From assembly GCA_015178975.1 (NCBI GenBank), contig WHVD01000065.1, positions 372,001-436,000 on the forward strand: 64,000 nucleotides of DNA. The letters run 5' to 3'. Position 1 is the stretch's first letter. Each line of letters begins with the position of its first letter. The notes beneath the pieces were generated by a model, which saw only the letters and a list, made by a program, of their open reading frames with translations, did not search any database and was not told the DNA's origin. The position numbers and the translations under genes were made by a program. Below are positions 12,100-60,829 of this stretch, piece after piece. The stretch is from Hysterangium stoloniferum. Its lineage: Eukaryota > Basidiomycota > Agaricomycetes > Hysterangiales > Hysterangiaceae.

Positions 12100-12777
12100 T
12101 TACACATATTCCCTTCCACTAAGGAAGAAGTCAAATTCCAACAATGGAGCAAGGATTTCCCCAAAAGAGTGAAAGTGGGAAGAAAAGCAAATCAGAGGAA
12201 AAGAAAGGTGGAATACCAGGAGGATCAGAGGAGGAGAGGTGCTAAGATAGGAGTCCCTTCTATGCATGACAGACAAGAATTGAGAAGGAAGGGAGGTTAC
12301 CAAGCCCCAGTGATAATTTCCCCTCCTCCAGGACAAAAATGGGCAGATTTCACTGAGACCGATGCCAGCAACAAAGGTACCCTTTGTATATAAGTGGTAG
12401 GGAACAAGAGAAGGAAAGAAAAGGATGGTGTCATTTTCTATGATCAGGAATTTATCAGGAGAATCAAACTGCAGAGCATTGAATTACAATGAGGAGATGG
12501 GATTGAATTACCTACAAGACCTATCAAGCAAAGGGGCCCTGAAGAATAGACTTATCATACAGTATGTGGCCCATGGATTTGTCATCTGATTCAGACACAA
12601 GTCAGTCAGACAACCCTTTGTATAAGGTCAAACACTTGGGTGGAGATTGCTACAAGGGATTCTTATTACCTGAAAGAATCCACTTCATAACCAGCAATCC
12701 CAACCAAAGGAGGAAACTGCAACCTTCAACCTGAGTCTGGAGGGGATACCACACCATTAACAACAGTAGCACCGGTC
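12100..12777 (+). other. Degenerate interior of the LTR-bounded unit
   Basis: A basic lysine- and arginine-rich open segment at 12169-12393 (KANQRKRKVEYQEDQRRRGA) is followed by DNA with frequent stops. It may be the N-terminal part of the proline-rich protein further along. I see no recognisable domain. Confidence 0.3.
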
Positions 12778-13845
12778 ATGTCCACATCACATTCTCCAAA
12801 TTCCATCTCTCTTGCCTCAGCCAGATCCCCTACCACCACTTCATGTCACTCATATGAACCATTGACAGCACCTGTGGTCTCAATGTTGCTCACCCCCAAT
12901 TTCACTCCTCTCATCCACCACAAACCCCCTGCCATCTCCTTATACTGTCCAGCTTGGCCACTGACAGTTCCAGTACTCACTACTCCAATACCCTGCCCCT
13001 CTGATTCCAATCCCCTTAATACACAACTCCCCCTCCTGTAATTTCACCTGTACAGGTGACTCACTCCTTGCCTCCCTCTCCACAACTCAATCTGTGCCTT
13101 TGCCAGAAACCCCTAATGACCTTGAGGTTTCACATCCACTCACAGTAAACTTGATCTCTTTACCAGAGCCCACTCCTTTCCTCTGCATATCCCTTGGTAG
13201 TCTGATCTGCCCTCCCTATGAGGAACTGATGGAGGTCGACATTCCCAGTGAGGATCCATTAAAGGACCTCACCCAAATGAGTGAGAAAGCTAAAGGAAAA
13301 ATGACAGCTGTAACTCTGGATGTTGACCCCACTGTAGTAGATCCCCTACCTACCACCCCAATCTACACTGATATTCTTGATGTACCCCCTCCATCACTGC
13401 TTCTGATTCATGAAGTAGCAATGATGCCAACTGGTTGGATGTGCATATCCATCAATTACCCATCCATGCAATTCATGGTGGGGAGTGTACTAACACAATT
13501 GGGGCAAGCAATGCAACAACTGCCTTTCAAAGGAGGTGTACAAGGTTACAGTGGACCACTCATGCTGGCAGCTCCTATAACAGACACATCAACGATTCCA
13601 TGGAAAGGGAGCAATTGGCAGAGAACATCAGAAGAATTAAGCTTTCAAAGTTTCAGCAACTCCTGGTGGACCAAACTCATACTCCCCTGAGAGATGCAGA
13701 TATACTGCATGCTGGTGACCTCATGGACCTGCTCAAGAAGATTTCATCAGACTCCAGTGTGTCTGAACTTCATCCTACAGATGCTATCATGGAGTTATGG
13801 CAGCCATCTTCAGAGACTCAGCCATCCTCAGCTCTTCCCATATAG
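12778..13845 (+). pseudogene. Proline-rich hypothetical ORF chain in the LTR-bounded unit
   Basis: Three open segments (12778-13041, 13094-13690, 13435-13845) in shifting frames give a serine-, threonine- and proline-rich product with little hydrophobic content. The central 198-residue segment has ISLPEPTPFLCISLGSLICP and a stretch of alternating acidic and proline residues. I do not recognise the family. Position between two LTRs suggests a gag-like or captured coding region of a non-autonomous retroelement. Frame shifts indicate decay, or unseen introns. Composition differs from the housekeeping genes on the right, which have shorter open stretches broken by clear GT-AG introns. Confidence 0.35.
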
Positions 13846-14157
13846 TGGTGCAGTCTTTGCCTAAACCTCCTCTTATCACTTGAATTGTGACAGATCCCAT
13901 TGATCATATCTGGCCTATCATTTGAACTAGGCAAAAAGCTTACAGGCACTGGGTCTATGCTATACACTGCATACAAGAGTCTTTGTATGGTCACCACAGT
14001 GCAGACCTGCAGGACATCAACTCATCATTTCAGATTAAATGTGTGAATTGGGCTCAAGCCATCCTGAACCAGGGATGCTCATCTTGAGAAGCTTGGGGAG
14101 GAGTTCCTGATGTCCTTCAGGACTTCATATAACATAGCTCTTCAAACTGGGGGGCAC

Positions 14158-14790
14158 TGTGAGAGGTACCCTTTTCACAGGAATGTAACTATCTTGTCAG
14201 ACTATATTCCCTATATTTCTTCCTTATTTTCTACTATTTTCTAAATCGTCTAATTCTCCACTTAGACACATTTATATTAGTTCGAAGATATATGTACACC
14301 TGTGGGTACACAGAACTTGTAAGCACTTACATACTGCATACTTATGTACACTAGTGGGTGTAACAAGAAGCTCAGACACTTTTTACCCTGTAACTACAAC
14401 TTGCCCAGATACCCTTTTAGTGTCCTGCAAGCTGTGATTGGGGTATTGTCTCAGCCATCTCTCAATTAGAACTTACAATCACTATCTAGCCTCATACTGT
14501 ATAGTTGAGGCTCGATCTATCATTGGCTTCTACTTGCACATCATCTTGCTCATATCAACCTCTCTTCTAACTCATTATCTTGTTAACCCTCCCTTTGGAA
14601 TCACACCATAAAGTCAATTCCTTTCTCTATTAGTCATCTTAACTATCTCAGGGCTACTAAAATTGACTAATCCTATTCTACTTGCTATATTGTACTTTGA
14701 TAGTCAATATATTGTCATGTTGTACATACCTAGATGGTCAATATACATACTTCATATATAGAGTGGTCAGAACTTCCACAACTCTTCACA
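14158..14790 (+). mobile_element. Family-D LTR (second copy)
   Basis: It begins TGTGAGAGG directly after a G-rich tract and ends CTCTTCACA. It is about 160 bp longer than the first copy because of internal A/T-rich insertions. Repeated GGTCAATAT-type motifs lie near its 3' part. A more degenerate relative is at 43430-43860. Confidence 0.6.
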
Positions 14791-14829
14791 GCTACTGGGA
14801 AGGTAAATACTGCAAGTAGGGTTCTGAAA

Positions 14830-15225
14830 CAATGGTTCCTAACATTCTCATTGAAAATCACATTTTTCATTCAATTCTTTGATGGGGAAAATTAAGTAGA
14901 AAAATATGGTTCTCACTTGGTTTGCTTAGAAACACTATTATGGGTTTCATAGATTTTGTTAGGTGCAAAAATCCTAACAAAATGCAAGATTTGCCAGAGT
15001 TTCCCTATTCAGAAAATCCATCAAAAATAGGTTATTTCCAATGATGTTTCCCCAGAATTTCCTGCCAGTTTTTTTCATATTTCACATGATATTCTGCTTG
15101 TAAAAACATACTAAAACTCAAAAATTGCAAACAATTTTTCACTTCAAACAATGCTTAAAAGATTTGGTCAAATTAAAAATTTCCAAATGTTTTCCAACTC
15201 CAAAAACCTTGGGATGCCTTTAGTG
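14830..15225. mobile_element. CACTA-like MITE fragment (right end only)
   Basis: The right end, reading inward, is CACTAAAGGCATCCCAAGG and then TTTTTGGAGTTGGA. It matches the ends of the palindromic element at 28662-29035. I could not find the opposite end, so this copy is truncated or its left end has decayed. It lies about 100 bp past the stop of the HEAT-repeat gene. Confidence 0.5.
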
Positions 15226-15328
15226 TTGAGAATCCAATGAGTGATTGGTAGAGTGTATATAAAATAAGCCTTTATTGGAGATCCTCAAAAATTTTGGAGC
15301 TGGGGCTTTCCCAGTGTACATTGTGAAA

Positions 15329-18300
15329 CTACAATGTGGTTAGTAGTCCATGTCTATCTATTTGCAGAATCAAAGCCTGAATGTGCTCGGAAGAAATATC
15401 CCCCATGAAATGGATTATGAAGGATAAAATGTGAGCAACTTCAAGAATGGTGTATCTTAAACAAGCTACCAAGATCAGCATTCATGACAACTAGAAGATA
15501 CAAACACTTACTGGATTTCAAGAGGATTTGAATCAACATACAACAACGTTGCAGAGGTGGTGTTGGTAAATATAGGTGGCACAATGCAGCCAGGACTACC
15601 CGCAGCTTAATGTTGGTAAAATAACCTGCAAGAGAGTAAAATGAGTCAATGCTGCAAAGAATTAAAGCTTACCATATTGAGCAAAAGCTACAAACAATTT
15701 TCCACCAGCTGAAACAGCTTTGTCATTGTCGGCATCAACGAGGGATATACAGTGATGTTGTAAATTGCAGGCAATAATAGCTTCACGGAGGCAATCTTTG
15801 AAAAGATGGGTGAGGGGAAGGGGTTAGCTTGCATGACAAGGCACACACTATCAGCTGACAGCTTAACGAGCAAGTCAACAACTTGTGTTTGGGTTTGTAA
15901 ATATGTGTCTTCCAACATTGCAACAACGTCGGGAATGACACCCGCAATGACGGCTCGAAATTCGGCTGTGGTCAAATGTCAGCTGGGTGCCCATCCCATT
16001 ATGACACACTGCACCTTGCTCCGAAACCTTCCCCAGGACGGATACTGCGCTTGATGGAACGCCCCCTCCAGAGTGCTTCAGCAGTTCAACAATGTCGGGA
16101 ACGGCACCCGCAATGGCGACCCGAAATTCCGCTGTGGTCAAATGTCAGCCGCATTCCCATCCCATTATCACACACCGTACCATGCTCTGAAACCTTCTTC
16201 AGGACCGATACTGCGCTTGATCGAACGTCAGAGTTAAAGTCCTTCAACAGTCCAACAATGTCGGGAATGACACCCGCAATGGCGGCCCGAAATTCGGCTA
16301 GGTCAAATGTCAGCTGGATTCCCATCCCATTATCACACCACACCTTGCTCTGAAACCTTGCCCAGGATCGATATTGCGCTTGGCCGAACGTCATTGTCAG
16401 AATCCATCAACACTCCAACAAGTTCGGGAATGACACCCGCAATGGCCGCTCGAAATTCGGCTGTGGTCAAATGTCAGCTGGGTACCCATCACATTGTGAC
16501 ACACTGCACCTTGCTCTGAAACCTTCCCCAGGACGGATACTGCCCCTGATCGAACGTCAGAGTCATAGTCATTCAACAGTGCCGCAATATCGGGAATGAC
16601 GCCCGCAATGGCGGCTCGAAATTCGGCTATGGTCAAATGTAAGCTGGGTGCTCATGCTATTATGACGCACCGCACCTCGCTCTGAAACCTTGCCCAGGAC
16701 GGATACTGCCATTGATCGAACGTCAGAGTCAGAGTCCTTCAACAGTCCAACAATGTTGGGAATGACACCCGCAATAGCGGCTTGAAATTCGGCTGTGGTC
16801 AAATGTAAGCTGGGTCCCATCCCATTATGACACACCGCACCTCGCTCTGAAACCTTCCCCAAGACGGATACTGTCATTGATTGAACGTCAGAGTCATAGT
16901 CCTTCAACAGTGCCGCAATATCTGGAATGACTCTCGCAATGGCCCCTCGAAATTCGGCTGTGGTCAAATGTCAGCTAGATTCCCATCCCATTATCACACC
17001 ACACCTTGCTCTGAAACCTTCTCCAGGGCCGATACTGCGCTTAATCGAACGTCACCGTCAAAATCCTTCAACAATGCAACAATGACGGGAATGACACCCG
17101 CAATGGTGGCTCGAAATTCGGCTGCGGTCAAATGTCAGCTGGATTCTCATCCCATGATCACACACCGCACCGTGCTCTGAAACCTTCTCCAGGAGCGATA
17201 CTGCGCTTGATCGAACGTCAGATTCAGAGTCCTCCAATAGTCCAACAATGTCGGGAATGACACCCGCAATGGCCGCTCGAAATTCGGCTGTGGTCAAATA
17301 TCAGCCAGGTTCCCATACAAATATGACACACCACACCCTGCTCTGAAACCTTCCCCAGAATTGATAGTGCCTTTGATCGAGCGTCATCGTCAGAATGCTT
17401 CAACAGTCCAACAATGTCGGGAATGACACCCGCAATGACCGCTCGAAATTCGGCTGTGGTCAAATGTCAGCTGGATTCCCATCCCATTATCACACACCGC
17501 ACCGTGCTCTGAAACCTTCTCCAGGACCGATACTGCGCTTGATCGAACGTCATAGTCAGAGTCCTCTAACAGTCCAACAATGTCGGGAATGACACCCGCA
17601 ATGACCGCTCGAAATTCGGCTGTGGTCAAATCTCAGCTGGATTCTCATCCCGCTATCACAGAACGCACCTTGCTCCGAAACCTTCCCCAGGACCGATAGT
17701 GCGCTTGATCGAACGTTAGAGTTAGAGTCGTTCAACAATCTAACAATGTCGGGAATGACAGCCGCAATGGCGGCTCGGAATTCGGCTGTGATCAAATCTC
17801 ATCTGGATTCCCATCCCATTATCACACACCGCACCTTGCTCTGAAAATTTCCCCAGAACCGATACTGCGCTTGATGGAACCCCCCAGTCAAAGTCCTTCA
17901 ACATTCCAACAATATCGAGAATGACACCCGCAATGGCAGCTCGAAATTCAGCTGTGGTGAAATCTCAGCTGGGTTCCCGTCCCATTATCACACCGCACCT
18001 TGCTCTGAAACCTTCTCCAGGACCGATGCTGCGCGTGATCGAACGCGCCAGGCAGAGTCCCTCAACAGTCCAACAATCTCGGGCATGACACCCGCAATGG
18101 CCGCTCGAAATTCGGCTGTGGTCAAATGTCAGCTGGGTTCCCATCCCATTATCACACACCACACCGTGCTCTGAAACCTTCTCCAGGACCGATACTGCGC
18201 TTGATCGAACGTCAGAGTCAGAATGCTTCAACAGTCCAACAATGTCGGGAATGACACCCGCAATGGCCGCTCGAAATTCGGCTGTGGTCAAATGTCAGCT

Positions 18301-21300
18301 GGGTTCCCATCCCATTATCACACACCGCACCGTACTCTGAAACCTTCTCCAGGACCGATACTGCGCTTGATCGAACGTCAGAGTCAGAATGCTTCAACAA
18401 TCCAACAATGTCGGGAATGAGCCCCGCAATGGCCGCTCGAAATTCGGCTGTGGTCAAATGTCAGCTGGGTTCCCATCCCATTATCACACCGCACCTTGCT
18501 CTGAAACCTTCTCCAGGACTGATGCTGCCCGTAATCGAACGTGAGAGTCAGAGTCCTTCAACAGTCCTACAATGTCGGGAATGACACCCGCAATGGCCGC
18601 TCGAAATTCGTCTGTGATCAGATCTCAGTTGGATTCCCATCCCATTATCGCACAACGCACCTTGCTCTGAAAATTTCCCCAGGAGCGATACTGCGCTTGA
18701 TTGAACGCCCAAGTCAGAGTCTTTCAACAGTGCAACAATGTCGAAAATGGCAGGCGCCATGGCGGCTCGAAATTCGTCTGTGGTCAAATGTCAGCTGGAG
18801 TCCCATCCCATTATCACACCTCACCTTGCTCTGAAAGCTTCTCCAGGGTCGATACTGCCCTTGATCGAACATCAGAGGGAGGATCCTTCAACAATACAAC
18901 AATGTCGGGAATGGCGCGAGTAATGGCGGTTCCAAATGCCTCTGCAAGTCCATGAATCATGGCAGTTGACGAGAAATTGGTGCACGTACCAAACATATAT
19001 AGAGCAGTGACCACCGTTAACAGAGCGGACTTTCCTTCTTGTCCTCTGAGGTCGAATCTGCATAAAGGAAGGTAAAAATTCCACGCTGTGAAGCGGTATG
19101 GAAATTAGTCAATGAGTAACCTAGGAGCTCTCTGCACATACATGTAATTGTTACGCATTGAATGATCCTGATGTGTTCATGACGGGAAAAACTATCAGTG
19201 CTATGCAAGAGATCCACAGTTGACGACAGACGGTGAGTGGGCAATCCGGTGAGGTCTCGCATATATGGCACACTTGCTAGATTACCGCGATATCGATCAG
19301 GATGAGATGATAAAAAAGAGGGAACGGTAATGCTGTGAAGTGGGATTGAAAGTGACTCGAGCAGCGATGGTTGCGTTTTGGCCGACAATCCGACCGCCGC
19401 ACATATGTCAGCCCTAACAAGAGGGAGAAACTCCCCTATAAACACTTCAGACAAGTTCTTCAACAAAATTTATTGGATCACCTTGGTCTGAGAATTTCGC
19501 CAGGGCCGATGCTCCGTTTGATCGAACTTCAGAGTTAGAGTCCTTCAACAGTCCAACAATGTCGGGTATGACACCCGCAATGGTGGCTCGAAATTCGGCT
19601 GTGGTCAAACGTCAGCTGGATTCCCATCCCATTATCACACACCGCACCTTCCTCTGAAAATTTCCCCAGGAGTGATACTGCGCTCGATCGAGCGCACCAG
19701 TCAGAGTCCTTCAACAGTCCAACAATGTCAGGAATAGCAGGCGCAATACCAGCTCGAAATTCGACTGTAGTCAAATTCAACTGGGTTCCTCATCCCATTA
19801 TCATATATCGCACCTTGCTCTGAAATCGTGCCGAGGACCGATACTGCGCTTAATCCAACGCCCACGCCAGAGTGCTTCAACAGGCCAACAATGTCAGGAA
19901 TGACACCCGCAATGACGGCCCCAAATTCGGCTGTGATCAAATGTCAGCCGGATTCCCATCCCATTATCACACACCGCACCTTGCTCCGAAACCTTCTCCA
20001 GGATAGATGCTGCGCTTGATCGAACGCCATAGTCAGAATCCTTTAACAGTCCAACAATGTCGGGAATGACACCCGCAACGGCCGCTCGAAATTCAGCTGT
20101 GGTCAAATGTCAGCGGGATTCCCATCCCTTTTTCACACACAGCACCTTGCCCTAAAAACTTCTCCAGAACCGATACTGCGCTCGATCGAACGCGCGAGTC
20201 AGAGTACCTCAACAGTCCAACAATGTCGGGAATGACACACACAATGGCGGGTCGAACTTCGGCTGTGGTCAAATGTCAGCTGGGTTTCCATCCCAGTATC
20301 ACACACCGCACCTTGCTCTGAAACCTTCTCCAGGAGCAATACTGCCCTTGATCCAGGGAACCTGTCAGAGTTCTTCAACAGTCCAACAATGTCGGGAACG
20401 ACACCCGCAATGGCGGCTTGAAATTCGGCTGTGGTCAAATCTCAGCTGGTTTCCATCCCAATATCACACACCGCACCGTGCTCTGAAATCTTCTCCAGGA
20501 CCGATACTGCCCTTGATCGAACATCAGACTCAAAGCCCTTCAACAGTGCACCAATGTCGGGAATGGCAGGCGCGATGGCGGCTCGAAATTCGGCTGTGGT
20601 CAAATGTTAGCTGGGTGCCCATCCCATTACCACAGACGGCACCTTGCTCTGAAACCTTCCCCAGGATCGATACTGCGCTTGATCGAACGCGTGAGCTAGA
20701 GTCCCTCAACAATGCAACAATGTCGGGAATGACACCCGCAATGGCATCCCGGAATTCCGCTAGTGGTCAAATCTCAGCTGGATTTTCCTTCCCATGTTCA
20801 CACACCGCACCTTGCTCTGAAACCTTCTCCAGGGCCGACTCTGCGCATGATATAACGTCAAAGTGAGAGTTATTCAACAGTCCAACAATGTCGGGAATGA
20901 CACCCGCAATGGCCGCTCGAAATTCGACTATGGTCAAATGTCAGCTGGGCTCCCATCCCATTATCACACACCACACCTTGTTCTGAAACCTTCTCCAGGA
21001 CCGATACTCCCCTTGATGCACCACGCCAGCCAAAGTTCTTCAACAGTCCAACAATGGCGGGAATGACACCCGCAATGGCCGCTCGAAATTCGGCTGTGTT
21101 CAAATGTCAGCTGGGTTCCCATCCCATTATTACACACCGCACCGTGCTCTGAAACCTTCCCCAACATTGATACCGCGCTTGATCCAACGTGCCTGTCAGG
21201 GTTCTCCAATAGTCCAACAATGTCGGGAATGACACCCGCAATGGCGGGTCGAAATTCGGCTGTGGTCAAATGTCAGCTGGATTCCCATCCCATTATCACA

Positions 21301-24300
21301 CACCACACCTTGCTCTGAAACCTTCTCCAGGACCGACACTGCCCTTGACCGAACGTCATCGTCAGCATCCATCAACAGTCCAGCAATGTCGGGAATGACA
21401 CCCGCAATGGCCGCTCGAACTTCGGCTGTGGTCAAATGTCAGCTGGATTCCCATCCCATGATTACACACCGCACCGTGCTGTGAAACCTTCTCCAGGAGC
21501 GATACTGCGTTTGATCGAACGTTAAAGTCAGAGGCCTTCAACAATCCAACAATATCGGGAATGACACCCGCAATGACGGCTCGAAATTCGGCTGTGGTGA
21601 ATTATCAGCCAGGTTCCCATCCCATTATCACACACCACACCTTGCTCTGAAACCTTCCCCAGAATTGATAGTGCGCTTGATCGAACGTCATCGTCAGAAT
21701 CCTTCAACAGTCCAACAATGTCGGGAATGACACCCGCAATGGCGGCCCGAAATTCGACTAGTGGTGAAATCTCAGCTGGATTCCTATCCCATTATCACAC
21801 ACCGCACCTTGCTCTGAAACCTTCTCCAGGACCGATACTGCGCTTGATCCAACGCGCCCATCAGAGTTCTTCAACAGTCCAACAATGTCAGGAATGACAC
21901 CCGCAATGGCGGTTCGAAATTCGGCTGTGGTCAAATGTCAGCTAGGTTCCCATCCCATTATCACATACCGCACCTTGCTCTGAAACCTTCCCCAAGACCG
22001 ATACTGCGCTTGATCGAACGCCCCCTCCAGAGTGCTTCAGCAGTCCAACAATGTCGGGAACGACACCCGCAATGGCGGCTCGAAATTCGGCTGTGGTCAA
22101 ATGTCAGCTGCATTCCCATCCCATTATCACACATCGCACCATGCTCTGAAACCTTCTCCAGGAACGATACTGCGCTTGATCGAATGTCAGAGTTAGAGTC
22201 CTTCAACAGTCTAACAACATCGAGAATGAAACCCGCAATGGCGGCCCGACATTCGGCTGTGGTCAAATGTCAGCTGCATTCCCATCCCATTCTCACACAC
22301 CGCACCATGCTCTGAAACCTTCTCTAGGACCAATACTGCGCTTGATCGAACGTCAGAGTTAGAGTCCTTCAACAGTCCAACAATGTCGGGAATGACACCC
22401 GCAATGGCGGCCCGAAATTCGGCTAGTGGTCAAATATCAGCTGGATTCCCATCCCATTATCACACCACACCTTGCTCTGAAACCTCCTCCAGGACCGATA
22501 TTGCGCTTGATCGAACGTCATTGTCAGAATCCATCAACAGTCCAACAAGGTCGGGAATGACACCCGCAATGGCGGCTCGAAATTCGGCTGTGGTCAAATC
22601 TCATCTGGATTCCCATCCCATTATCACACACCGCACCTTGCTTTGAAACCTTCTCTACGACCGATGCTGCATTTGATCGAATGCCCCAGTCATAATGCTT
22701 CAACAATCCAACAATGTCGGGAATGACACCAGCCATGACCCCTCGAAATTCGGCTGTGGTCACATGTCAGCTGGATTCCCATCCCATTATCACACACCAC
22801 ACCATGCTCTGAAACGTTCTCCAGGACCGATACTGCCCCTGTTCGAACGCCCCAGTCAGAGTCCTTCAACAGTCCAACAATGTCGGGAATGACATCCGCA
22901 ATGACCGCTCGAAATTCGGCTGTGGTCAAATGTCGGCTGGATTCCCACCCCATTATCACACACCACACCTTGCTTTGAAACCTTCTCCAGGACTAATACT
23001 GCGCTCCACCGACCGGCTTCGCCACCATCCTTCAACAGTCCAACAACGTCGAGAATGACACCCGCAATGACCGCTCGAAATTCGGCTATGGTCAAATCTC
23101 AGCTGAATTCCCATCCCATTGTCACACATCACACCTTGCTCTGAAACCGTCCCCACGATCGATACTGCCCTCCCTCGAACGCTCCAATCATTGTGCTTCA
23201 ACAGGCCAACAAGGTCGGGAATGAAACCCGCAATGGCGGTCCGAAATTCGGCTAGTGGTCAAATGTCAGCTTGATTCCCATCCCATTATCACACATCGCA
23301 CCCTGCTCCGAAACCTTGCCCAGGGCCGATATTGCGCTTGATCGGACGTCCTTGGGAAAATTCTTCAACAGTGCAGCAATGTCGGGAATGACACCCGCAA
23401 AGGTCCCTTGAAATTCGGCCGTGTCAAATGTCAGCTGGATGTCCATCCCATTATCACACATCGCACCTAGGTCTGAAACCTTTTCCAGGACCGATGCTAC
23501 CCTTGATCGAATTTTATCGTCCTTCAACAGTTTAACAAGTTGGGGACTGAGGCCCACAATGGCGGCCCGACATTCGGCTAGTAGTCAAATGTCAGCCGGA
23601 TTCTCATCTCATTATCACTCACCCCACCTTGCTCTGAAACCTGCTCGAGGACTGATAATGCGCTTAATTGAACGCGCCCGTCACAGTCCCTCAACAGTGC
23701 AACAATGTCGGGAATGGCACCAACCATGCCAGTTGGGAATCTAGCTGCATACCGATGCATATTATATCGTACTCCTCCTCCACTTGATATTTCTTACCAC
23801 ATTCCAACAGGAATTGTTCCTTAGAATAGTCGGCTTTTGCCGTCACCTTCTTCATCCACTCTTTTTCTTTTCCTGTTGTGATAATACATTAGGTATATGT
23901 GTTTTGACTCATGGTAAATGCACAGTTTACCTACTGTCAAACCTCTTTCTTTCAGCATTTTCCTGCAATCCGCTGTTCATCAATCAGTTTCTTTGCCGGA
24001 GCCACGGAAAAAATCCCTACTAAGATGCCAATATGCTAATATTAACTGTTCACAGGTTACACGTAAGCTCTGCTTTTCTGACAGTGCTCCCTCAATAGTC
24101 GCCGTCATCAACGTCCTTCGCTCGTATGGTGCTGCACCCATCGTGGCCACCGTTTCAATGTGTGGGCCTGTCGGCACCTCTACGTTACCGCCATCTATGT
24201 TTGCCCAAATACCAATATAAACCGCCCATCCCAATGTCTTCACGCAAGGATCTAAACTGCCCAACCGATGTAATGGTCTCCCAACATCTAGGAGTGTTTT

Positions 24301-25676
24301 AAAGGGGGTAAGGTACTCTTTGCCCAAGAGCTTGTCTGTTGGCGGCGATAGGACTCGTGACATTGCAAGGAGAGAAACTTCCGCAAGTGCTGCATCACGT
24401 ACAGTGACGATGCCCGCGGTGAGGTGAAAACAGCTCTCCAAAGTTTTGCATAATTTCTCCGTGACAGCTCGTTGGCACAAGGCAATCCGCAACTGTTCAG
24501 ATTGCTTAGCACCTGCTACAGCCCTAAGTGCCTCGTTAAGTGCCTCCTCCGATGTGGACTTTGCAATCATCCATGCCAGGACCTCAGCTTCAAGTTCGCC
24601 CCGTTGAGGCTTGCGATGCATTTCGATCAAGAACCGAGAAAGGCTTTCTAGCCATTCAGAAATTTTGGATGTATACGTCCTTGTCGGTGGCAAAGACCCA
24701 CAGTAATCTGATGTGGACGTCTCATACTTTGCGCTTGCAGAGACGACTGGGAAAAACCGCGACATTGTTGTCTGAAAGGGACAAGCGGGGGAAAACAAGG
24801 GAAAAACGGTGCCGAGTGAATATAGCACGATTGCGGATATGGTCAAAAAAAGCATAAGAACGCCCAAAGCTACACTGTTATTCCAGGTGAATAAGACGAG
24901 ACCTGCAGAGAAAAGGAAGAGAGCTAGCTGAATCAAAAGTGGGATTCCAGTAACAACTGACTCGAGATGCCATTGCTGTGCTCTCCTAACACGAAGGAGA
25001 CGTTGACATGCATCACTTGAACGACTTCCGGGGGATACAGGAATATACTTCGCCAGCCATTCTCTTGCCAGGACAGCACAAAGAGCACTGAAGAGAGTCA
25101 GACCGAGACTAATGAACCACAAGTAGTTCACAATAAGGGATGATTTGGAGACTTCAAAGCGCTGAGAGGGTGTTACAGCGAAGTGATTTTGAAGCGCCTG
25201 AAGGATTTCCTGGACAGGGTCTATCTGCAAATCCTTCCTACTTTCGATCAGGAACGCGGTAAGAATCCCCCCAAACAAACCCGCCTGAAAGTGTGAATTA
25301 ATGGAATATCTATACAGAAAAGAAATCGTATTCAGCATACAAATATGAGAAGCTCGTCGACACCAACTTGCAATGAGTTGGCAAGTTCTTTATCCTCTTT
25401 TTCCGTTTCCTCCAGATATAATGACCAAGTGGTTGAATCCGGTTGAATGTGCTTGCTATAGGGGTTATCGTCTTCGCTTTCTAACCCATTATCCCCACTG
25501 GATGCCGTCTCGATTGGGATTAAGGGAATGTTAATAGGCGAAGGTTGACGGTCGGTCGTTCCTTGTTCTTCTGTTTGCGTGGCTCAGTTTAAAATAAGTG
25601 AAAACTCCTATCTAATACCTGAGACAGACGGCGTCTGTGATTCCGCGGCACTAAGGTCTTGTGCATACCCCCACAT
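15329..25676 (-). CDS. DUF6535 membrane protein with about 45 near-identical HEAT units
   Basis: A probable membrane receptor or scaffold; its biochemical role is unknown. Exon 1 is 25676-25619, exon 2 25570-25341 and exon 3 25284-24063, all in frame. Residues 97-112 (AGLFGGILTAFLIES), 146-168, 209-230 and 234-258 are four hydrophobic segments matching the fungal DUF6535 layout. After small exons near 24019-24006, 23962-23935 and 23872-23798, the HEAT array starts at 23744. Each unit begins AEFRAAIAGVIPDIVGLL and ends VRSSAVSVLGKVSEQ. A spacer at 18960-19490 divides 26 units from 19. The end uses exons near 15673 and 15625, then 15477-15329 with the stop at 15331-15329. The product would be about 2,400 residues. 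The 5' chain is secure; the spacer splicing is not resolved, and two adjacent genes remain possible. DUF6535 is recognised from memory. Confidence 0.75.
15790..23744 (-). repeat. 166-bp tandem exon-intron array (HEAT units)
   Basis: Forty-five recognisable units: 19 with acceptor sites from about 15970 to 18930 and 26 from about 19600 to 23744, at a mean spacing of 166 bp. One more divergent unit sits at the 3' end. Each unit is a 117-nt exon (39 codons) and a 49-nt intron starting GTGCGGTGTGTGATAATGG, with branch-like GCTGAC and ending ACCACAG. All introns are phase 1. Introns are about as similar between units as the exons are, pointing to recent unequal exchange or conversion. A few units end the intron with CTAG instead of ACAG. 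Confidence 0.92.
18960..19490 (-). other. Non-repeat spacer inside the HEAT array
   Basis: On the minus strand the last unit of the 26-unit block ends KFSDQ and is followed by a 45-nt GT-AG intron. Then comes the unique exon EFLPLVRADICAAVGLSAK and SIPLHSITVPSFLSSHPDRY. A further unique stretch, GKSALLTVVTALYMFGTCTN, leads into a divergent first unit of the 19-unit block (AITRAIPDIVVLLKDPPSDV). It could be an internal linker, or the C-terminus of one gene and the N-terminus of another. I do not recognise it. Confidence 0.5.
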
Positions 25677-27030: not shown

Positions 27031-27344
27031 TGTTAAGTAGTAGACAAGATTTCGAAAGGGTAGAGTCTGTTTGCGAAGCTCAGTGAGTGAATGAGTAAAC
27101 TCCACTGAGGTATATGGCGAAATATTGTGACTTTTTATCTAATTTCTAATTATTTTAGGAGAGATATTAGGAGAGTAAATAGGGGAAATTTAGATACTCG
27201 AAGTTTCTAGTCGATTGCATCATTAAGGAGAAATTTGCAATTAGGAGTTCCTCCCCTCCTAACGGCACCTCAATATATGTGCATATACTCGTCATTGTAG
27301 GTTTGATTCCGATTTTGGTTTATGCGAAGACTTGATTACTAACA
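27031..27344 (+). mobile_element. Solo LTR, family C (copy C1)
   Basis: The 314-bp element runs TGTTAAGTAG...TTACTAACA. Flanking pentamers are GTGCG (27026-27030) and GTGTG (27345-27349), a target duplication with one C to T change at a CpG. An inverted copy lies at 28240-28564. Confidence 0.85.
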
Positions 27345-28239
27345 GTGTGAATTTTTAACTCCCAAAATCAGAATTGCATGATAGCGCATCATCCACGCAT
27401 ACAGTCTTGGTTTGCCTCCACTGATGGGGCAATTCTTCCTATTTCCGGATGACAGCTGTAAGCCAACTATCGCTCTCCCTCACACTATTCAGCTGGATTA
27501 CATGTCCTACCTGTTTCAAATGTATCTTTGGGCTATGTTCTACCCTTCCACTGAATCCTATGAAACATTGGTATACTGGCACTTTCGGAATTGTTGTTGT
27601 TTCAAGCTGGATAGCATGGGAAAGTGGCCCTCCAATACTGTGTCAAGTTTCGAAGGGAGAGAACTAGTGTAAGGAATTCACCCAGCACTGTGCCTCCTCA
27701 CGGCGTGAAGACCCTCGTCTTATTTCAAAAGCTTTGCTTATGAGCTCATGGATCCTGTCGATTGAACACTAGCATGAAGAAAGATGAGCCTGAACGAGAC
27801 ATGTATCGGAATGGCACGGGTGAGATCTTTCTCAGACCTCCCATGAGAAGTGTGCTGTTGTTGAAAAATACTCCAATACAGTGAAATCAAATCAATGTGA
27901 AGTGTCAATGACACCATATGTATGCTTATGTCGTCCAATAAATCTCTCAATATAGCTCCAGCAATGTCTCGAAACTATGCATCTTGCTGGAAGCAACACA
28001 CGAAAAGTCATATGGGATAGTTTATACAAGAAATGTCATGATATTGTTTGTTATGGTTTTGGTGGGCAGGATGAAATGATGTGAGGTCGCAATGCACGCT
28101 TGTAACCAGAATTCAATGTAACCTCTGATCGCAGTGAGCTCTTCTACGGATAGTTGACACATGTGGCAGATTGCTTCCACGATATACACAAGGCTGAAAA
28201 CGGGAGGTGATCAAATCCTGTTATATAATGGGCGATGTG
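27345..28239. other. Gene-poor segment between family-C LTRs
   Basis: The open segments 27412-27672 (plus) and 27738-27950 (minus) have no recognised domain. The minus one contains RDLLDDISIHMVSLTLHIDL, weakly similar in spacing to a HEAT helix pair. I see no splice pattern that joins them into a gene. Confidence 0.3.
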
Positions 28240-28564
28240 TGTTAGTAATCAAGTCTTCGCATAAACCGAAATCGGAATCGAACCTATAATGACGAGTATA
28301 TGTGCATATATGCGCATATATTGAAGTACCGTTAAAGGGGGAATAACTCCTAATTGCGAATTTCTCCTTAATGATGCAATTGACTAGAAACTTCAAGTAT
28401 CAAAATTTTCCCCTATTTACTCCCCTAATAACTCTCCTAAAATAATTAGAAATTATATAAAAAGTCGCAATATTTCGCCATATACCTCAGTGAAATTTAC
28501 TCACTCACTCACTGAGCTTCACAAACAGACTCAATCCTTTCGAAATCTTGTCTACTACTTAACA
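28240..28564 (-). mobile_element. Solo LTR, family C (copy C2)
   Basis: The 325-bp inverted copy of C1 begins TGTTAGTAATC and ends CTACTTAACA. It is flanked by perfect ATGTG duplications at 28235-28239 and 28565-28569. Confidence 0.9.
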
Positions 28565-33461: not shown

Positions 33462-33818
33462 GCAATCGTTCCAAGCCTTTATGTGACTACACGAGTATCA
33501 AATGTTTGTCACTCCATATATGTTTACATTCATTGCACAATTTGATAAAAATCAGCAATGCGATGAACGACCAGAAACATCCGGAGGTTTGTTGTAATAC
33601 TTTAGTCTCGCATCAGACTGGACATTAAGCGTCACCTCATGCCACGAGCTTGTTTTCACCCGCGTATATCAGTATAACCCCTTTTTCTCTTTTTGCCCCC
33701 TCAGTCGTTTCTACAGCCCTCCTAGGCAGTGACTGAGTACCGGCTGCCCTGTCATAGTTTGTCAATATCGGGTTGTAAATACAAGGAAGAGATTGCATGG
33801 CAGCAAATCGTGCACCAT

Positions 33819-33933
33819 CCCCAACCGTGCACTACCCCAACCGTGCACTACCCCCAACCGTGCACTACCCCCAACCGCGCACTACCCCAAGTGTGCACTA
33901 CCCCCAACCGTGCACTACCCCAAGTGTGCACTA
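33819..33933. repeat. 16-17 bp minisatellite upstream of the P450
   Basis: Seven units of CCCC(C)AACCGTGCACTA, two of them with the variant AAGTGTGC. It lies about 360 bp upstream of the P450 start codon. The ORFs that cross it are repeat artefacts. Confidence 0.9.
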
Positions 33934-33935
33934 CT

Positions 33936-36483: not shown

Positions 36484-37510
36484 TCAAACAGTGGTATTAC
36501 ACCATCCTGGTGTCAGGGGGCCTGTAGGGGCAATAGCTTCAGGGTGGTGTTGGTGGAAGGTGGCAACCAATTTTGGAGCAAAGACATTGGTCACCAGCTC
36601 CCAGCTATCGTGTTTTGTGCCGAACCCTCGCCATTTGATGAGATATTCAATTTGCCCATACTTTAACCTGCTGTCGAGCACTTCCTTCACTTCATATTCA
36701 ACTTCGCCTTCCACCACAATTGGGTCTGGAGGGGGCTCTATGTGACATCCTAAAATCAGATTGGTAATCGTGGGTGTCAGTTTTGTGACATTGAACATGG
36801 GCCTGCTCATCAACTTGGGTAGGTTGAGATGAGATGCAATTGGCGATATGCGGTCAAGCACCCTGAAGGGTCCAAGTTGCAGGTGCAAAAGCTTCTTGGA
36901 TGGTCAGTTGGTGTGAATATCACTCACGTCAAAGAACATGCAATCACCTACCTCAAAGACTGGCATGGGAGTTTGATGGTGGTTGTAGTACCTCGCCATT
37001 TTGTCTTTAGCCTTCGTGAGCACAGCCTTAGCCTCTTCAAGGGTGGTTGGACATACGATCATGGAACTCATTTGCCAATTTGACTTTGTCAGAGTGGAGG
37101 TTCAGTTTGAAACCCATGTGCAGGTTGCACCTGTGATCAAGCATGAAGGGTGTATGTTGGGTGGAGGAGTGGATGTGGTTGTTGTACTGGAATTCTGTGA
37201 GTGGCAGAAGGTTGGCCCAATCAGACTGATGTTGATTTACGAATATGTGCAGGTAGGTCTCAAGTTTCTGGTTGACCCGCTCAGTCTGTCCATTGGACTG
37301 GGGGTGGTAGGCTGTCAAATAGAATGGTTGGATGCCAAGAAACTTATACAATTCCCGGGTGAACTGACTTGCAAATTGGAGTCCATGATTGGAAAGGACG
37401 TGTTGAGGTAGCCCATGGTGTTTCCATACATCTTTGAAAAAGATCCTGGCTGCCCCCATAGAGTCAATGGTCTTATGTATGTGTGGGTAAGAAGTGGCCC
37501 CATTTCATCA
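36484..37510 (-). pseudogene. Ty3 integrase core and chromodomain
   Basis: The integrase core reads QFTRELYKFLGIQPFYLTAY then HPQSNGQTERVNQKLETYL, typical of Ty3 integrases. At the expected SD(R/K)G motif the sequence is SNHG, so one catalytic Asp is now Asn. The chromodomain includes EYEVKEVLDSRLKYGQIEYL and IKWRGFGTKHDSWE, with the aromatic cage positions recognisable. The two parts are in separate frames. The Asp to Asn change alone would abolish strand transfer. Confidence 0.82.
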
Positions 37511-37569
37511 AGAGATTGATGACTACCATGATGGAGTCATATCCCTGAGACTCCAGTAAGTCAACTATG

Positions 37570-38359
37570 AAGTCAATGCTTGCCATCTGCCAGTGATCTG
37601 TCAGGGTGGGATTCAGCTGAAGCTCTCCAATTGGGAGTCGTCATTGGAATTTGGTGCACATGCATATGTTGCAGGACCTTGTATATTGTCCCACATAATG
37701 AGATATGCCTGGCCACCAAAAGTTCCGGCTCACAAGTTCCAATGTCTTCCAATGACCGGTGTGGCCCCCAATTCTGGAATTGTGGTGTTGTTCGATGATC
37801 CTTCATCTCAGCTCAAGGTCTGTTGGAACGTAGATCTTACCATGATACATCACCAACCCATCCTCCTCTGACCATTCCGCTGACCAAATCAAATGCCCTT
37901 TTGATTTGCAAAGTTCTTTTACCACTTTCACAACCGATTCTTCTTGCTCACCATCCTGGTTCCCCAGACAGATCACCATGAGGAATTCTCATTCTGGCTC
38001 ACTGATGGAGACACCTTCTAAGGCCCAAACCACCAGAACCTCTGGTTTGAGTAAGATGAGATTGGAGTTGTCTCCCTCCCCTGAACCATGGTCTGACCGA
38101 TGGGATAGTGCATTGGGTTTACCCATTGACTGACCCAGTTGATGGTGCAGTTTGAAATTGAAGTGTGCTAGAAACAACGACCATCATGCTTGCCTGCAAT
38201 TGAGCTTCTTCAATGACATGAAATACTCCAAGTTTTTGTGGTCTGTCCAGACCTCCACCAGAAATCACACTCCTTCGAGGAAATGTCTCCAGTCTTCAAA
38301 AGCACAGATTACTGCGAGCATCTCCTTGTTGTGTATCTCATAGTTGCATTCGACTGGTG
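37570..38359 (-). pseudogene. Ty3 RNase H / integrase zinc-finger region, broken
   Basis: FNFKLHHQLGQSMGKPNALS followed by HRSD marks the end of RNase H (normally ADALSRR). The RNase H start lies on the other side of the nested LTR insertion near 41.2-41.5 kb. No continuous frame remains. Confidence 0.65.
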
Positions 38360-39593
38360 TGTTATGACTGGAAATCCTGCCGGACTCCGGGCACTAACTT
38401 ATATGCACCCACGCCCTATACGCACCCATTATCAGTTTACCAGAATTCCTGCCGGACTGCGTACGTCAGACTTGTCTACATTTGTCTTCATTACATTGTG
38501 TTTCAGTCACTGGAATAACCACTGGACTCCATCCCTGTTTATGTCCGACCTTGTCCCACGCATCAGTCACCGGACCCTGCTCAGAAAACCTGTCTTCCCT
38601 CTAACAGAGCCCCATTCCCGTTTTAGTCAAATGACCTGTCATGATTCAGACTCCGCTCCCACTCCATTTCCCATTATGGTTTATGATTTGTCACTATTCG
38701 GACTCCGCTCCATTCCATCCCGTTCCTAACACCAAATTTGGTGTTTACTATTCCCGTTTTATGTTTTGCTCATTTCGTTTCATCATTACTGGATTTGGTA
38801 TGACATTCACTCCACGGTCTATTTAAACTGGCAGATGTTGTACATACAATCCAGTCAGAAAATCGGCTTAGATTCCCCCCAGTAATCTAATACATTTTCC
38901 GCTCTAAACTCCTACTTGAATTACACCCCTCACACTAGTCAGAGCCCACGGGCTCCGGCGCATCTATCACTCTTACCTATCTCGACTCACGACCCATGAC
39001 CTCCGACCTACAACCCCTCGACCCATGACCCCCACCCAGACTCCCCAGGATTCCCGTCCACCTGCCTGAAATTGGACAACACGATCTAGCGAGGGCACAT
39101 GTTATGTATTTCTAAGTTTTTTCCAATTTTTTAAACAATTTCCCCTAACAAATTGCGAAAACAAATATTCAAATGTAATTATATTGCGACGATTAAATTG
39201 TACAATATTTGTTTGATTTATCCTGAATTTATACAATTTATTTTGTATTTTTATCTAATAAATTGAGCAAGTAATTGAATTTCTACTTTTTATTCTTTTT
39301 TGATTAATATGTCGGTAACTCAGCGCTTATTCACAACGCGCGAGTAATCATGTGACATTCACATGATATTTCAAACTCCGACGCTGACAAAACGCGATTT
39401 GAAATACTCGCGCATTATCAAGGTGAAATATATATATTTTTATATTATTATAATAAAATATTATATTTATAACTAATTAAAAGTAAATATAATAATTATA
39501 TAATAATATAAAACCGGCCTGGCGTTTATTACACGGCGCGCGGGAAAATCGTCACAACGAGTGACAACCGTCATAACAGGTGACAGTTGTCAC

Positions 39594-39689
39594 AAGGGCG
39601 CGCGACGGTCACAAGGGCGCGCGACGGTCACAGAGGCGCGCGACGGTCACAGAGGCGCGCGACGGTCACAGAGGCGCGCGACTGTCACA
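39594..39689. repeat. 19-bp CpG-rich minisatellite in the family-B element
   Basis: Five units of AAGGGCGCGCGACGGTCAC or the GAGG variant. It is much richer in CpG than the surrounding transposon DNA. The plus-strand ORFs crossing it (arginine-rich repeats) are artefacts of the repeat. Confidence 0.9.
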
Positions 39690-40129
39690 ACGCGTGACAG
39701 TCACAAGACGCGAAGGGTGTCATGCGCGCGCACAGGCGCGAGAGCATTATGTCATCATATATGCTACTGCAACAAAAACAGGAAACTCTCTGGAACATTC
39801 CAGTGGCTTCCAATGGAACATTAGTTAATAGGTACTAATATTAGATAGAATATTGTAGAATATTCTATAAAATTCTACAATGTTCCATTATGCCAAGAAT
39901 ATTCTATAGTGTCTTAGAAGTAGTTAGAACCTTCCACAATGCTCTAGAAAATTCTAGAAAATTCTAAATGACATCACTCCTCCCAGAATGACATCATTAA
40001 ATCTTCTAGAATCTTCTAAATGTCTCAGACTAAAATGTATATAAGGAGCTCAGCTCCAGCCTTGAATAAAACCAATCAATCATATTATCATATCATCTCA
40101 CCACATCTGTGTGTGTCACTGCAGCAAGC

Positions 40130-40520
40130 AGGCTACTCCACCCCTATCTGGGCAGTTGGACATCTCATTCCACCTCTATCTGAGCTGTTGGAAACCCTTG
40201 CCACCTCTATCAGAGTTGTTGGCCCAATCAGATCCCTTGTCACCTCAATCTGAGCTGTTGACTGATCTGCTGTTCCCTGTCACCTCAATCTGAGTTGTTG
40301 ACTTTTGTTCCCCCTTGCCACTTCTTAATTGAATAGCTGGCTATCTTTTATATATTATTTCCACCTCAGTTAGAGTTGTTGGTTATCAACTAATAATATA
40401 TAAATAATCTCATACTATAGTCATCTCTTAATTGAGTACTGATTATTAGTTTTCCTTACATTGTTATTTGTAGTTTAAGACTTCAGTCACCTCTAGTTGA
40501 GTAATTTGACTGTTTATTAC
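40130..40520. repeat. Degenerate interspersed motif cluster in the family-B element
   Basis: About eight spaced copies of a motif like CACCTCTATCTGAGCTGTTGG, 30-60 bp apart, becoming less regular to the right. They lie just downstream of the putative TATA box, so they would be transcribed as untranslated leader. Confidence 0.6.
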
Positions 40521-41239
40521 ATTGCAAATAATCCCGTTCCTTTGTTCATTTATTGTGAATCAGTAAAGCATATTCACATAAACAAATACTGAGAATATCC
40601 TTGCAGAATCCTTAAGACTACATTAAGATCCTGATAAGTTAATATCACAGTAGACCTTGTAGGTTAGTGTAAATAAAGCATATATTAGCCAAATAGTGTT
40701 TTATTCTATATCTAATCTTTTGACCCGTTTATAAATATTTTTACTGTTTGACAAATAGTATAAAGTATATATAAACTAGCTAGCATTGAAGTTAAATCTA
40801 GCTTCAGAATCAGTAAATTGTTATTCTTATTTTAGTAGTTGTTATCACAGAAAAAGAACAAGCTTGCACAAGCAGCTCTCAAAACCTTCTTTGCGAAGTT
40901 GGGTGCATATATTCAAGTAAACTCTTGACTTCAGGGGTTCTAAGTCTATTTAGGCTGCCACTGATTAATATCAAATACTTAAATTATTTTACCTTGCAGT
41001 GAATTGAGTATTTGCACATTTTGATAGAGCATTGGACTCCTTTTTCGGAAAATAGTATTAAAATAAGGCTAATACATTACAGCACAGCCTATAAGCTGAA
41101 GCCAAGTCCTACTGGATATTCTGTGGGTTTCTCCAGAGACCCGCCGTGTATGTACCCTAACATAATGACAGACTCTTTGAATAGAAGGCAATTGGATGCC
41201 ACTTCAGGTCATCATGTTGCTGTGACAAAACTGCTCCTG

Positions 41240-42460
41240 TGGCATAGTCAGATGCATCCACCTCTACTTGGAAGGGTTTAGCATTGTCCAGCGTTGTCAG
41301 GGTTGGTGCATTCATTGTGAGGTCCTTCAGAAGTAGAAAGGCCTCATTTTCTGCTGCTGACCATTTCCATGAGGTCTCCTTCCGAGTCAGGTCAAACAGT
41401 GGTCAGGCATGGTGGGAGAAGTTGTGAATGAATCTTTGATAGAAATTTACGAATCCCAGGAAGGCTTGTACCTCCTTTTGATTTGTTGGGACAGGCCATT
41501 TGCATATGCCAGCTACCTTAACTGGATCCATATCTGCTCAGTTCTCTGAGATGATCAGACTGAGGTATTCAACTTTTGTCTTCTTGAAATCACACTTCTC
41601 TGGCTTCAGGTACAGCTTATGTGTGCAGAGGTGATCTAAGACCAGCATGAGAATGTGTTGGTGCTCTTTGAGGGTCCTGGTGAAAATCAGGATGTCATCG
41701 AGGTAGATGCAGACAACTCTGTCTGCTATTAGGTTGTGGAAGATGTCATTCATCATGGTCTGAAAGGTTGCCAGGCTATTTGTAAGTCTGAAGAACATCA
41801 CTAAGGGTTTGAACAGGCCTCTATTGGTGCAAAACACTGCCTTTGGTTCATCTCCTTCCTTAATTCGGACATTTTTATATCCCCATCGGACATCAAGCTT
41901 TGTGAAATAATGTGTGCCCTTCAACTGGTTACCAGCTCCAAGATCAGGGGGAGTGGGTATCAGTCTTTGATGGTCATTGCGTTTAGCACTCTGTAGTCCT
42001 GTACCAATCGGAGGGAGCTGTCCTTTTTCTTGATAAAGAAAACTGGAGAGGCCATAGGTGACTTTGATGGGTGTATATGACCGGTCACGAGATTTTCTGT
42101 GAGGAAAACATGAAGTTCCACCTGTTCATTCAGCGACATGGGGTAGACCTTGCAATTGGTTGGTTTTGCATCAGGAACCAACTTGATCGCATGATCCCAA
42201 GGCTTTTGGTCTGGCAGAGAGTCGAATGCCTCCTTGGAGAACACATCTTCAAAACTGTGAAGGTAGTGGGGGACAATTTCATGAAAGCCTTTCGAGGCTG
42301 GTGCTCGGAATTTCACCTCTGCCTCTGCAAGTCGTTGTGATGTGGTTGCAGTTGCACGAATCCTGTCCAATTTCTGCTCAGGATGAATGGTGGTTACAAA
42401 TAAGTGATCACCCTCCTTGATGGATTCATCTGGTGGGTCATCCTCCTCCTCCAAATCCAC
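41240..42460 (-). pseudogene. Ty3 reverse transcriptase
   Basis: 42460-41960 holds the lead-in (FEDVFSKEAFDSLPDQKPWD, then VFFIKKKDSSLRLVQDYRVL). 41924-41538 continues with YFTKLDVRWGYKNVRIKEGD and CIYLDDILIFTRTLKEHQHI, where YLDD is the catalytic box. The two parts are separated by a stop and frame shift near 41940. LTNSLATFQ replaces the usual LTNAPATFQ. It is inactive. Confidence 0.85.
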
Positions 42461-43967: not shown

Positions 43968-44262
43968 GACTTGTATACTCTTTTAAAACATGCACAAATG
44001 TTATAGTTATACAAGATTATCTGAGTTGTTACCTAATCTTTGGGATAAAATGCATTCTTTAGTATCTCTATGACTTTTAAAATATCCACAAACATCATAG
44101 TTAAACAAGATTATCTGGGTTATGACTTAATCTTTGGGATAAGATGCATTCTCTAGTATCTCTGTGACTTTTAAAATATCCACAAACATTATAGTTAAAC
44201 AAAATTATTTGGGTTATGACTTAATCTTTGGGATAAGATGTATTCTCTTGTATATTATGCAA
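43968..44262. repeat. 94-bp tandem repeat, three copies
   Basis: Units start near 43968, 44072 and 44166. They share ATAGTTAAACAAGATTATCT and AATCTTTGGGATAAGATGCA. The first unit is the most diverged. AT-rich and non-coding. Confidence 0.85.
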
Positions 44263-59771: not shown

Positions 59772-60829
59772 TTAAACTACAGCCAGGTCGTTCGCAACTT
59801 GTGGCTCATGATCCTGCAAAGATATTGCTCCGATATGACGATATGCACCATTATCAGTTTTACTACCCATCTCGCATAATTGCACTTCAAACACAGACCA
59901 AGTTCCCAAATTTATCTTCAAGGGTCCCGTCTTATTTATGTTGGCTTCACCGTGCTCTTGTAAGATATCTACCATCGCGGGAGACGAAACAACAGCTGGG
60001 AAAGAAAACGGTACCCGCTGATTGTTTCCCCAGCGTTTACCGTTTGATTTCTTAAGACCCGTGTTCTTTCGATAGACTGTGTTTATCAGGGTACAGTGAA
60101 GCTATTATTGGGCATCAGCTATGGTGCAGCGATGCCAGCTCATGTTAAGCCATGTTTATTTTACCTTCAGTGGCCGGTCATCTTGGAGCATCCTGGCCCC
60201 CTTGAAAGTCGAGTGAATCAAATCTGTGGTTTAATATTTAATCGTAGGAAAGATCCTGTCCCGTTGTTTCAAAAACATACTACACACGGTGGCCAGTCGT
60301 TTTCCTGCCTCACTTGTCAAGTCAGGGCCAGCCCACAGGACATGGGATTGCTCTGGACTTTGATTCGGCTTCGAGCGCATAACATCCATAGATTCCAGAG
60401 GGATCATTAATTCCTCGCCATTCAATATCGTCATTATAGGTATCCGGAGACTATGGAGCAAGTTTAAGGCATCCTTAACTGTGTGGGAAATTGGGGACTC
60501 ATCAGCAGGTTTCAGAGTTGTGGTATTGTCTATTGCATCTCCCATTAAAGCGCCTTCATCCCGCTTTTTTTCAGCTCCAGAATTTTCTATCATCGTATTC
60601 GAGTTAAGGCTGAGGACGCCAAGAGTAATATGAAGGCTGCCTGGCCTGATAATGATGGATTCATCAAGCCCAGGAATCGGAGGCGACGTTCCAAGAAGGG
60701 TTGTAGATATACGATTCCAAGTTTCATGCAATGCAGCATGGTGGCCCTGTATCACTTAGATACTAGTAACAGTTGACACCTGACTCTTACAATGGGCAGT
60801 GAAATAACTATGTTAGAATGTTGTTCCAT
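59772..60829 (-). CDS. AKAP7/ASCC1-like 2H phosphoesterase, 296 aa
   Basis: Member of the 2H superfamily (two H-x-T/S motifs; RNA-ligase/cyclic phosphodiesterase fold). The in-frame exons are 60829-60791, 60746-60284, 60223-60165 and 60101-59772. The start reads MEQHSNIVISLPIGHHAALH. The first catalytic motif is GSLHITLGVLSL (His 52, Thr 54) and the second is LHCTLINTVYR (His 189, Thr 191), which falls at the start of exon 4. DDRPLK just before it matches the typical lead-in. The region between, with EEL and a Lys-rich run, is variable in the family. It may process 2',3'-cyclic phosphate or 2'-5' RNA substrates; the substrate here is unknown. The tail-to-tail partner is the HINT gene. Confidence 0.88.

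Follow-up and report, generated by a model that had tools for sequence, protein, structure and literature searches.

We describe an intact gene of Hysterangium stoloniferum, a "false truffle", that encodes a long array of HEAT repeats with one repeat per exon and belongs to an expanded fungal gene family. The gene lies on the minus strand of a 64,000-nucleotide (nt) stretch of contig WHVD01000065.1 (assembly GCA_015178975.1, positions 372,001 to 436,000), hereafter the window, to whose positions all coordinates refer. We think it probable that the protein joins a DUF6535 domain to a HEAT superhelix built in two blocks, and that members of the family change in length cassette by cassette. H. 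stoloniferum is an ectomycorrhizal species of the Agaricomycetes, Phallomycetidae (PMC7550596).

The repeat structure of the array is highly regular. Tandem Repeats Finder reports a 166-nt period at 15913-23721 (47.2 copies, 75% matches), and an anchor search finds 45 units on the minus strand, at 23742 to 15963, in an array spanning 23744-15849. Each 166-nt cassette consists of a 117-nt exon and a short intron. The exon is exactly 117 nt long in 43 of the 45 units, and the remaining two (111 and 105 nt) are also multiples of 3. The 43 introns between units are mostly of 49 nt (30 cases), followed by 47 nt (four), 50 nt (three) and 48 nt (three), with one each of 46, 51 and 60 nt, and all unit introns are in phase 1. 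The 60-nt intron exists because the acceptor of unit 3 has changed from AG to GG and the model instead uses the AG 12 nt farther along, without loss of frame. Each exon encodes a 39-residue HEAT consensus (AEFRAAIAGVIPDIVGLLKDSDSDVRSSAVSVLEKVSEQ) with an alanine codon split by the phase-1 intron. A consensus of three units matches HEAT best among the Pfam families (PF02985, E = 7.7e-16; 38 families matched, 25 listed), and the predicted order helix A, loop, helix B and the profile match are those of a HEAT repeat. A first-pass annotation, made from the letters of the DNA alone, had described about 45 HEAT units with one exon and one intron each, and the repeat finder, the anchor search and the open spliced model all bear this out. 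Its uniform unit of a 117-nt exon plus a 49-nt phase-1 intron holds for the phase and for 43 exons, but the introns range from 46 to 51 nt with one of 60 nt. Likewise, the units do lie at 15790..23744, where it had placed a continuous array, but a two-exon module interrupts them after unit 26, and the gene runs beyond both of these limits, to 25676 and 15329.

The full gene model has 55 exons and encodes 2559 amino acids without an internal stop between 25676 and 15329 (Table 1). Outside the array the exon boundaries are a model and not an observation: we set them from the reading frame, the splice signals and resemblance to listed proteins. Introns begin with GT and end with AG in 54 of 54 cases, and 53 are in phase 1; the single phase-0 intron falls between LLIF and AGLF. 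In the predicted protein, a DUF6535 domain containing four hydrophobic segments is followed by 26 units, a module of about 130 amino acids, 19 units and a conserved C-terminus. Exon 3 clears the curated cut-off of PF20153 by a wide margin (117.4 bits versus 23.9). Exon 2 alone stays under it (E = 0.0065, 16.8 bits), and the exact division of the DUF6535 profile between the two exons supports their junction. The hydrophobic segments lie within amino acids 86-261, the first of them starting in exon 2, and this N-terminus is probably a membrane anchor. No Pfam family matches the mid-array module, and a Pfam scan of the seven non-array exon pieces returned only DUF6535 and a Rab3-GAP row below its cut-off (E = 0.24). 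Neither NACHT nor NB-ARC was found in the pieces in which the protein was scanned, namely these seven and the three-unit consensus; exons 1, 4 and 5 (58, 42 and 75 nt) stood outside the scan and are too short for either domain. A fungal NOD-like receptor (NLR; signal transduction ATPase with numerous domains, STAND) carries one of these two domains in the same protein. The word "receptor", used for this gene in the first-pass annotation, is not supported by these scans, in which only DUF6535 and HEAT/ARM families were found. The gene itself seems to be unannotated among the listed protein matches (28, 120 of 126 and 6 rows).

Table 1. Predicted parts of the HEAT-repeat gene, in order of transcription (window coordinates).
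Feature	Position	Strand	Evidence
Exon 1, proposed ATG at 25676	25619..25676	-	Spliced model open, GT-AG; start codon predicted
Exon 2, N-terminal part, start of DUF6535	25341..25570	-	Pfam profile positions 1-29
Exon 3, DUF6535 and linker	24021..25284	-	PF20153, E = 8.5e-34, profile positions 30-177
Exons 4 and 5, link to array	23972-23931, 23872-23798	-	Phase-1 GT-AG junctions, open frame; predicted without a homologue
HEAT units 1-26, one exon each	19482..23744	-	Anchor search, model, Pfam HEAT
Unit 3, acceptor changed	23302..23406	-	105-nt exon from next AG; use of that AG predicted
Conserved module, two exons	19435-19142, 19085-18990	-	81 genome match rows, some genes giving two
HEAT units 27-45, one exon each	15849..18941	-	Colinear with sister array on C533
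C-terminal exons, stop at 15329	15795-15673, 15625-15512, 15465-15329	-	Relatives P0044, P0050 and P0149; genome matches

The array is kept as coding sequence, as seen from its stops, splice ends and length changes. When spliced, one of its frames is free of stops and the other two contain 57 and 81; unspliced, every frame has 96-115. We extended the comparison to 197 units in nine array stretches, one of them that of the window, taken from loci found by earlier searches. Across their 173 regular units, 1723 substitutions relative to the consensus include no stop. The expectation is 68.5 stops, or 10.1 when identical changes count as one, and for the window alone 19.2 and 6.8, respectively. 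At the rate of change of intron interiors, 48.8 broken GT-AG ends would be expected among 180 introns. Three were counted and, after inspection, one is real, the acceptor of unit 3 in the window. Length changes are divisible by 3 in four of four exons and in two of 36 introns (Fisher p = 1.6e-4). The N-terminal exon was compared in 32 copies including that of the window: 27 are stop-free over at least 397 of 421 codons, two have a stop and three align over less. It is under purifying selection, with a median ratio of nonsynonymous to synonymous substitution rates (dN/dS) of 0.43 over the 462 pairs that passed our filters. Lastly, two proteins listed with 1005-nt contigs, P0044 and P0149, run unbroken across the predicted unit junction. 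By eye the same holds at the C-terminal junctions, and the two look like spliced transcripts of a relative.

The window gene is one of many in this genome. We find 75 places with DUF6535, 47 of them with at least 100 bits. At 80-90% identity, the N-terminal 1.7 kb has at least 39 further copies (best 40 of 123 candidates scored). Matches to 500 nt of the array number at least 331 (best 30 candidates scored), and those to the first C-terminal exon (15795-15673) number 58. By coordinates, the module lies downstream of 38 of 40 N-terminal places, and the C-terminal exon follows as well in 36, one of these being unreliable. The module splits the array in all six stretches that reach across it. The first block contains 2-26 units across 38 genes, and the total is 15-48 units across 35 measurable genes, window included; the 26 + 19 units of the window set the constants for these coordinate-based counts. 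Counts from sequence agree for C157 (14 + 21), C377 (14 + 15), C32 (11), C200 (10), C2 (11) and C24 (14 after the module). Distances fall within 0.15 of a whole unit in 23 of 37 genes before the module and in 30 of 34 after it, and with the window left out this clustering on whole units is significant (Rayleigh test; p of about 7e-5 for the 37 genes and 3e-12 for the 34). Genes on C545, C212 and C79 are mostly 0.2-0.4 unit off before the module, and their counts are approximate. Some family copies are truncated; for instance, the C533 copy lacks a DUF6535 match and has no more than a partial unit ahead of the module. Outside this genome, DUF6535 proteins of Agaricomycetes (PF20153; Mycena, Hysterangium and others) have the same N-terminal domain, and the separate Mycena proteins P0046 and P0049 carry the same 39-residue unit. 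The DUF6535 proteins listed for H. stoloniferum are fragments no longer than 599 amino acids, from searches that admit 0.55-1.75 times the query length.

These numbers, together with whole-unit duplications and whole-unit gaps, support across the family the earlier proposal that units can be gained or lost without disturbing the frame. Exact duplications of at least 100 nt occur in four of the nine stretches (C157, C377, C32 and C2), reach 610 nt and mostly have whole-unit spacing. In C157, a 610-nt exact repeat is spaced by 5.00 units and others by 4.00 and 1.00. In C377, the eight longest exact repeats measure 184-333 nt, some of them linking units on either side of the module, and in C32 and C2 adjacent units are duplicated at 1.00-unit spacing. 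Near-identical cassettes in C157, C377 and C32 include the introns. Greater likeness of units within a gene than between genes, as in fungal repeats under concerted evolution, is clear in C157 (nearest relative in the same array for 28.2 of 29 units) and C377 (21 of 25) and weaker in the window. By module identity, the nearest sister of the window is C533 (87%; the next is at 76%). Against this sister, units 27-45 of the window can be aligned as 15 pairs that average 91% identity, each array lacking four whole units of the other. When unit order was shuffled 1000 times, no shuffle reached the score of this alignment with its eight whole-unit gaps, a result that holds for gap penalties from 0 to -0.05 and is lost at -0.1. 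As a side observation, the modules of C414, C475 and C527 score equally (94.0 bits), and coordinates place about 10 units after the module in the first two and 11 in C527; a very recent one-unit change is possible.

Based on these data, we propose the following mechanism. One 39-residue HEAT repeat corresponds to one 117-nt exon with its phase-1 intron; exon and intron would be copied together as a 166-nt cassette, and out-of-register homologous exchange by whole cassettes would add or remove complete repeats. Frame and splice sites would survive such exchange because exon and intron are copied as one. Both crossing-over and gene conversion would fit the data, and assembly errors might in principle account for the identical blocks. 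Duplication is visible in part of the family and not as recent events at the window locus; the unequal crossing-over suggested by the first-pass annotation is in keeping with unit turnover among the sister genes, but nothing points to a recent event in the window array.

Variation within the unit is concentrated at its loop. Among the 40 regular window units, variability peaks at codons 22 (entropy 2.85 bits) and 23 (2.46 bits); next come codons 27, 21, 31, 19 and 20 (1.86 to 1.55 bits). In a predicted structure of the relative P0044, helices at residues 47-65 and 69-84 span one unit, with helix A ending at codon 18 and helix B starting at codon 22. The model is modest (predicted local distance difference test score of about 85-89 over residues 51-90 and 65.6 overall). 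Given these helix limits, variation is greatest in the loop that joins the two helices of a repeat and in the first turn of helix B, and the lesser variable residues lie along helix B. Intra-repeat loops of this kind bind partner subunits in PR65. Helix A is conserved in the window (dN/dS 0.56, 0.43-0.75), codons 24-38 have a dN/dS of 1.00, and an interval above 1 is found only for codons 24-38 of C157 and C377. The N-terminal hydrophobic segments may cross a membrane, and the variable loops may be contact sites for partner proteins. If so, the purpose would probably be recognition, self/non-self or symbiont/pathogen, which is a plausible function.

Several observations weigh against this interpretation. 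Exact repeats of at least 100 nt are absent from five of the nine stretches (the window, C533, C200 and both C24 stretches). The nearest relative lies in the same array for only 18 of 39 window units (9.1 expected) and at near-chance levels in C533 (2.8 of 16) and C24 (2 of 14), and the mean distance within the window array exceeds that between arrays (0.170 versus 0.161). The correlation between exon and intron distances is weak within most arrays and negative in the two C24 stretches, so many exchanges may be shorter than one cassette. As for selection, dN/dS of loop codons 19-23 is 1.14 in the window (95% interval 0.82-1.49) and 0.50-1.28 over the seven arrays with at least 12 units, where diversifying selection is not shown, and whole-unit dN/dS is 0.54-1.27 by array, near 1 in several. 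P0044 and P0149 may derive from relatives poor in introns and not from RNA, and splicing of the introns in vivo is a prediction of the model. The analysis assigned no function to DUF6535, and structure matches are weak.

Three other explanations can be weighed against an intact gene that changes length by cassettes. HEAT/ARM solenoids are common adaptors, and an ordinary structural scaffold, such as a vesicle or membrane adaptor whose length varies neutrally and which has no recognition role, is a possibility to be taken seriously, if a less likely one. Armadillo matches (none at E = 0.001 or better) and a loop dN/dS not above 1 agree with a scaffold, but dozens of dispersed copies, residue variation greatest in the A-B loop and copy-number turnover appear more like recognition families. 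We regard it as unlikely that the introns matter in themselves, with exon skipping yielding many protein lengths in a Dscam-like manner. Skipping would be served by symmetric (1-1) exons of 117 nt or another multiple of 3 and by the common unit donors GTGCGG and GTGTGG, which are unlike the GTAAGT of the gene's last intron, but the symmetry follows from cassette copying without any need of selection for skipping. A decayed or passively amplified minisatellite, in frame by chance and with no working gene, is very improbable: a whole-unit dN/dS near 1 in several arrays and truncated copies such as C533 would suit it, but the missing stops (10-68 expected), the preserved splice ends, the in-frame exon length changes and the constrained N-terminal exon do not. 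Returning to the intact, cassette-built gene, we tentatively raise a bolder extension that we doubt more than we believe: a membrane-anchored recognition repertoire of a symbiotic fungus, distinct from NLRs, in which the cassette would be the unit of somatic or meiotic length change across dozens of genes, perhaps with exon skipping, giving receptors of 15 to about 48 repeats from one pool of exchangeable exons. If true, exon-per-repeat arrays would have arisen a second time, independently.

Genes with one repeat per exon include collagen with its 54-bp exons and vertebrate NLRP genes with their leucine-rich repeat (LRR) exons. The closest precedent for the Hysterangium gene is found in the Tetrahymena LRR arrays, in which T. 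thermophila genes carry 1 to 51 exons of 90 bp (PMC6564038). Its authors wrote that they were aware of no other eukaryote in which repeated exons and introns are so uniform, and thought that the design might have arisen a single time. Uniform exon length, a single intron phase and exchange of exon copies within and between genes are common to both systems. However, the Tetrahymena arrays encode LRRs in 90-nt, phase-2 units of a ciliate and are tied to REP retrotransposons, whereas the Hysterangium array encodes HEAT repeats in 117-nt, phase-1 units of a fungus and, unlike them, comes with a DUF6535 domain and a mid-array module. The array works like the Tetrahymena type and, being HEAT and not LRR, is not a member of it. 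The rarity claimed at first for such a regular exon-intron array is a fair description, although the Tetrahymena genes had already been published. A second comparison is with Podospora het-d/het-e NWD genes and other fungal NLRs, which (PMC1805685, PMC4986451, PMC12222747) likewise form a gene family with high-identity repeat arrays, differences in repeat number, exchange within and between genes and variable loop positions; turnover in particular resembles that of Podospora WD-repeat NLRs (PMC1805685). Their repeats are described as WD, ANK and TPR, with highly conserved HEAT in some Podospora STAND genes (PMC4986451), and positive selection is reported there, whereas it is not shown for the Hysterangium family. 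PMC4986451 and PMC12222747 do not use the word "intron", PMC1805685 uses it once, and no exon-per-repeat structure was seen in the available text of these papers.

Other features of the window surround the gene. Upstream of the gene, some 1.4 kb from its proposed start, lies a nested inverted repeat (27031-28564) that resembles a terminal-inverted-repeat element; its arms measure 161, 106 and 72 nt and match at 88-93%. Downstream, 12600-15300 contains dispersed repeats. Counting itself, this region has at least 77 matches (best 40 of 2373 candidates scored), and its identity to the others is 68-93%. Minus-strand frames at 36484-42460 resemble, by eye, fragments of retroelement gag/pol, and the two pieces of them that were scanned gave no Pfam match at 0.001. 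Farther along are a piece of a protein kinase gene (48992-50287; Pkinase, E = 3e-42), a Biotin_lipoyl domain (55141-55821; E = 7.5e-17) that by eye ends a carboxylase-like gene, and an AKAP7_NLS 2'-5' RNA ligase-like domain (60231-60755; E = 1.8e-9). Short tandem repeats occur at 33809-33934 (17 bp), 39589-39690 (19 bp) and 43980-44253 (94 bp).

The Hysterangium gene is a real, intact and independent fungal HEAT case of the exon-per-repeat design. With a fungal version that differs in repeat, length and phase, the design becomes a recurring solution, and one can ask directly whether introns make changes of length safer for repeat genes. The gene also brings to light a large family outside the NLRs, listed publicly only as pieces in the searches made here, that is a candidate for fungal self/non-self recognition.

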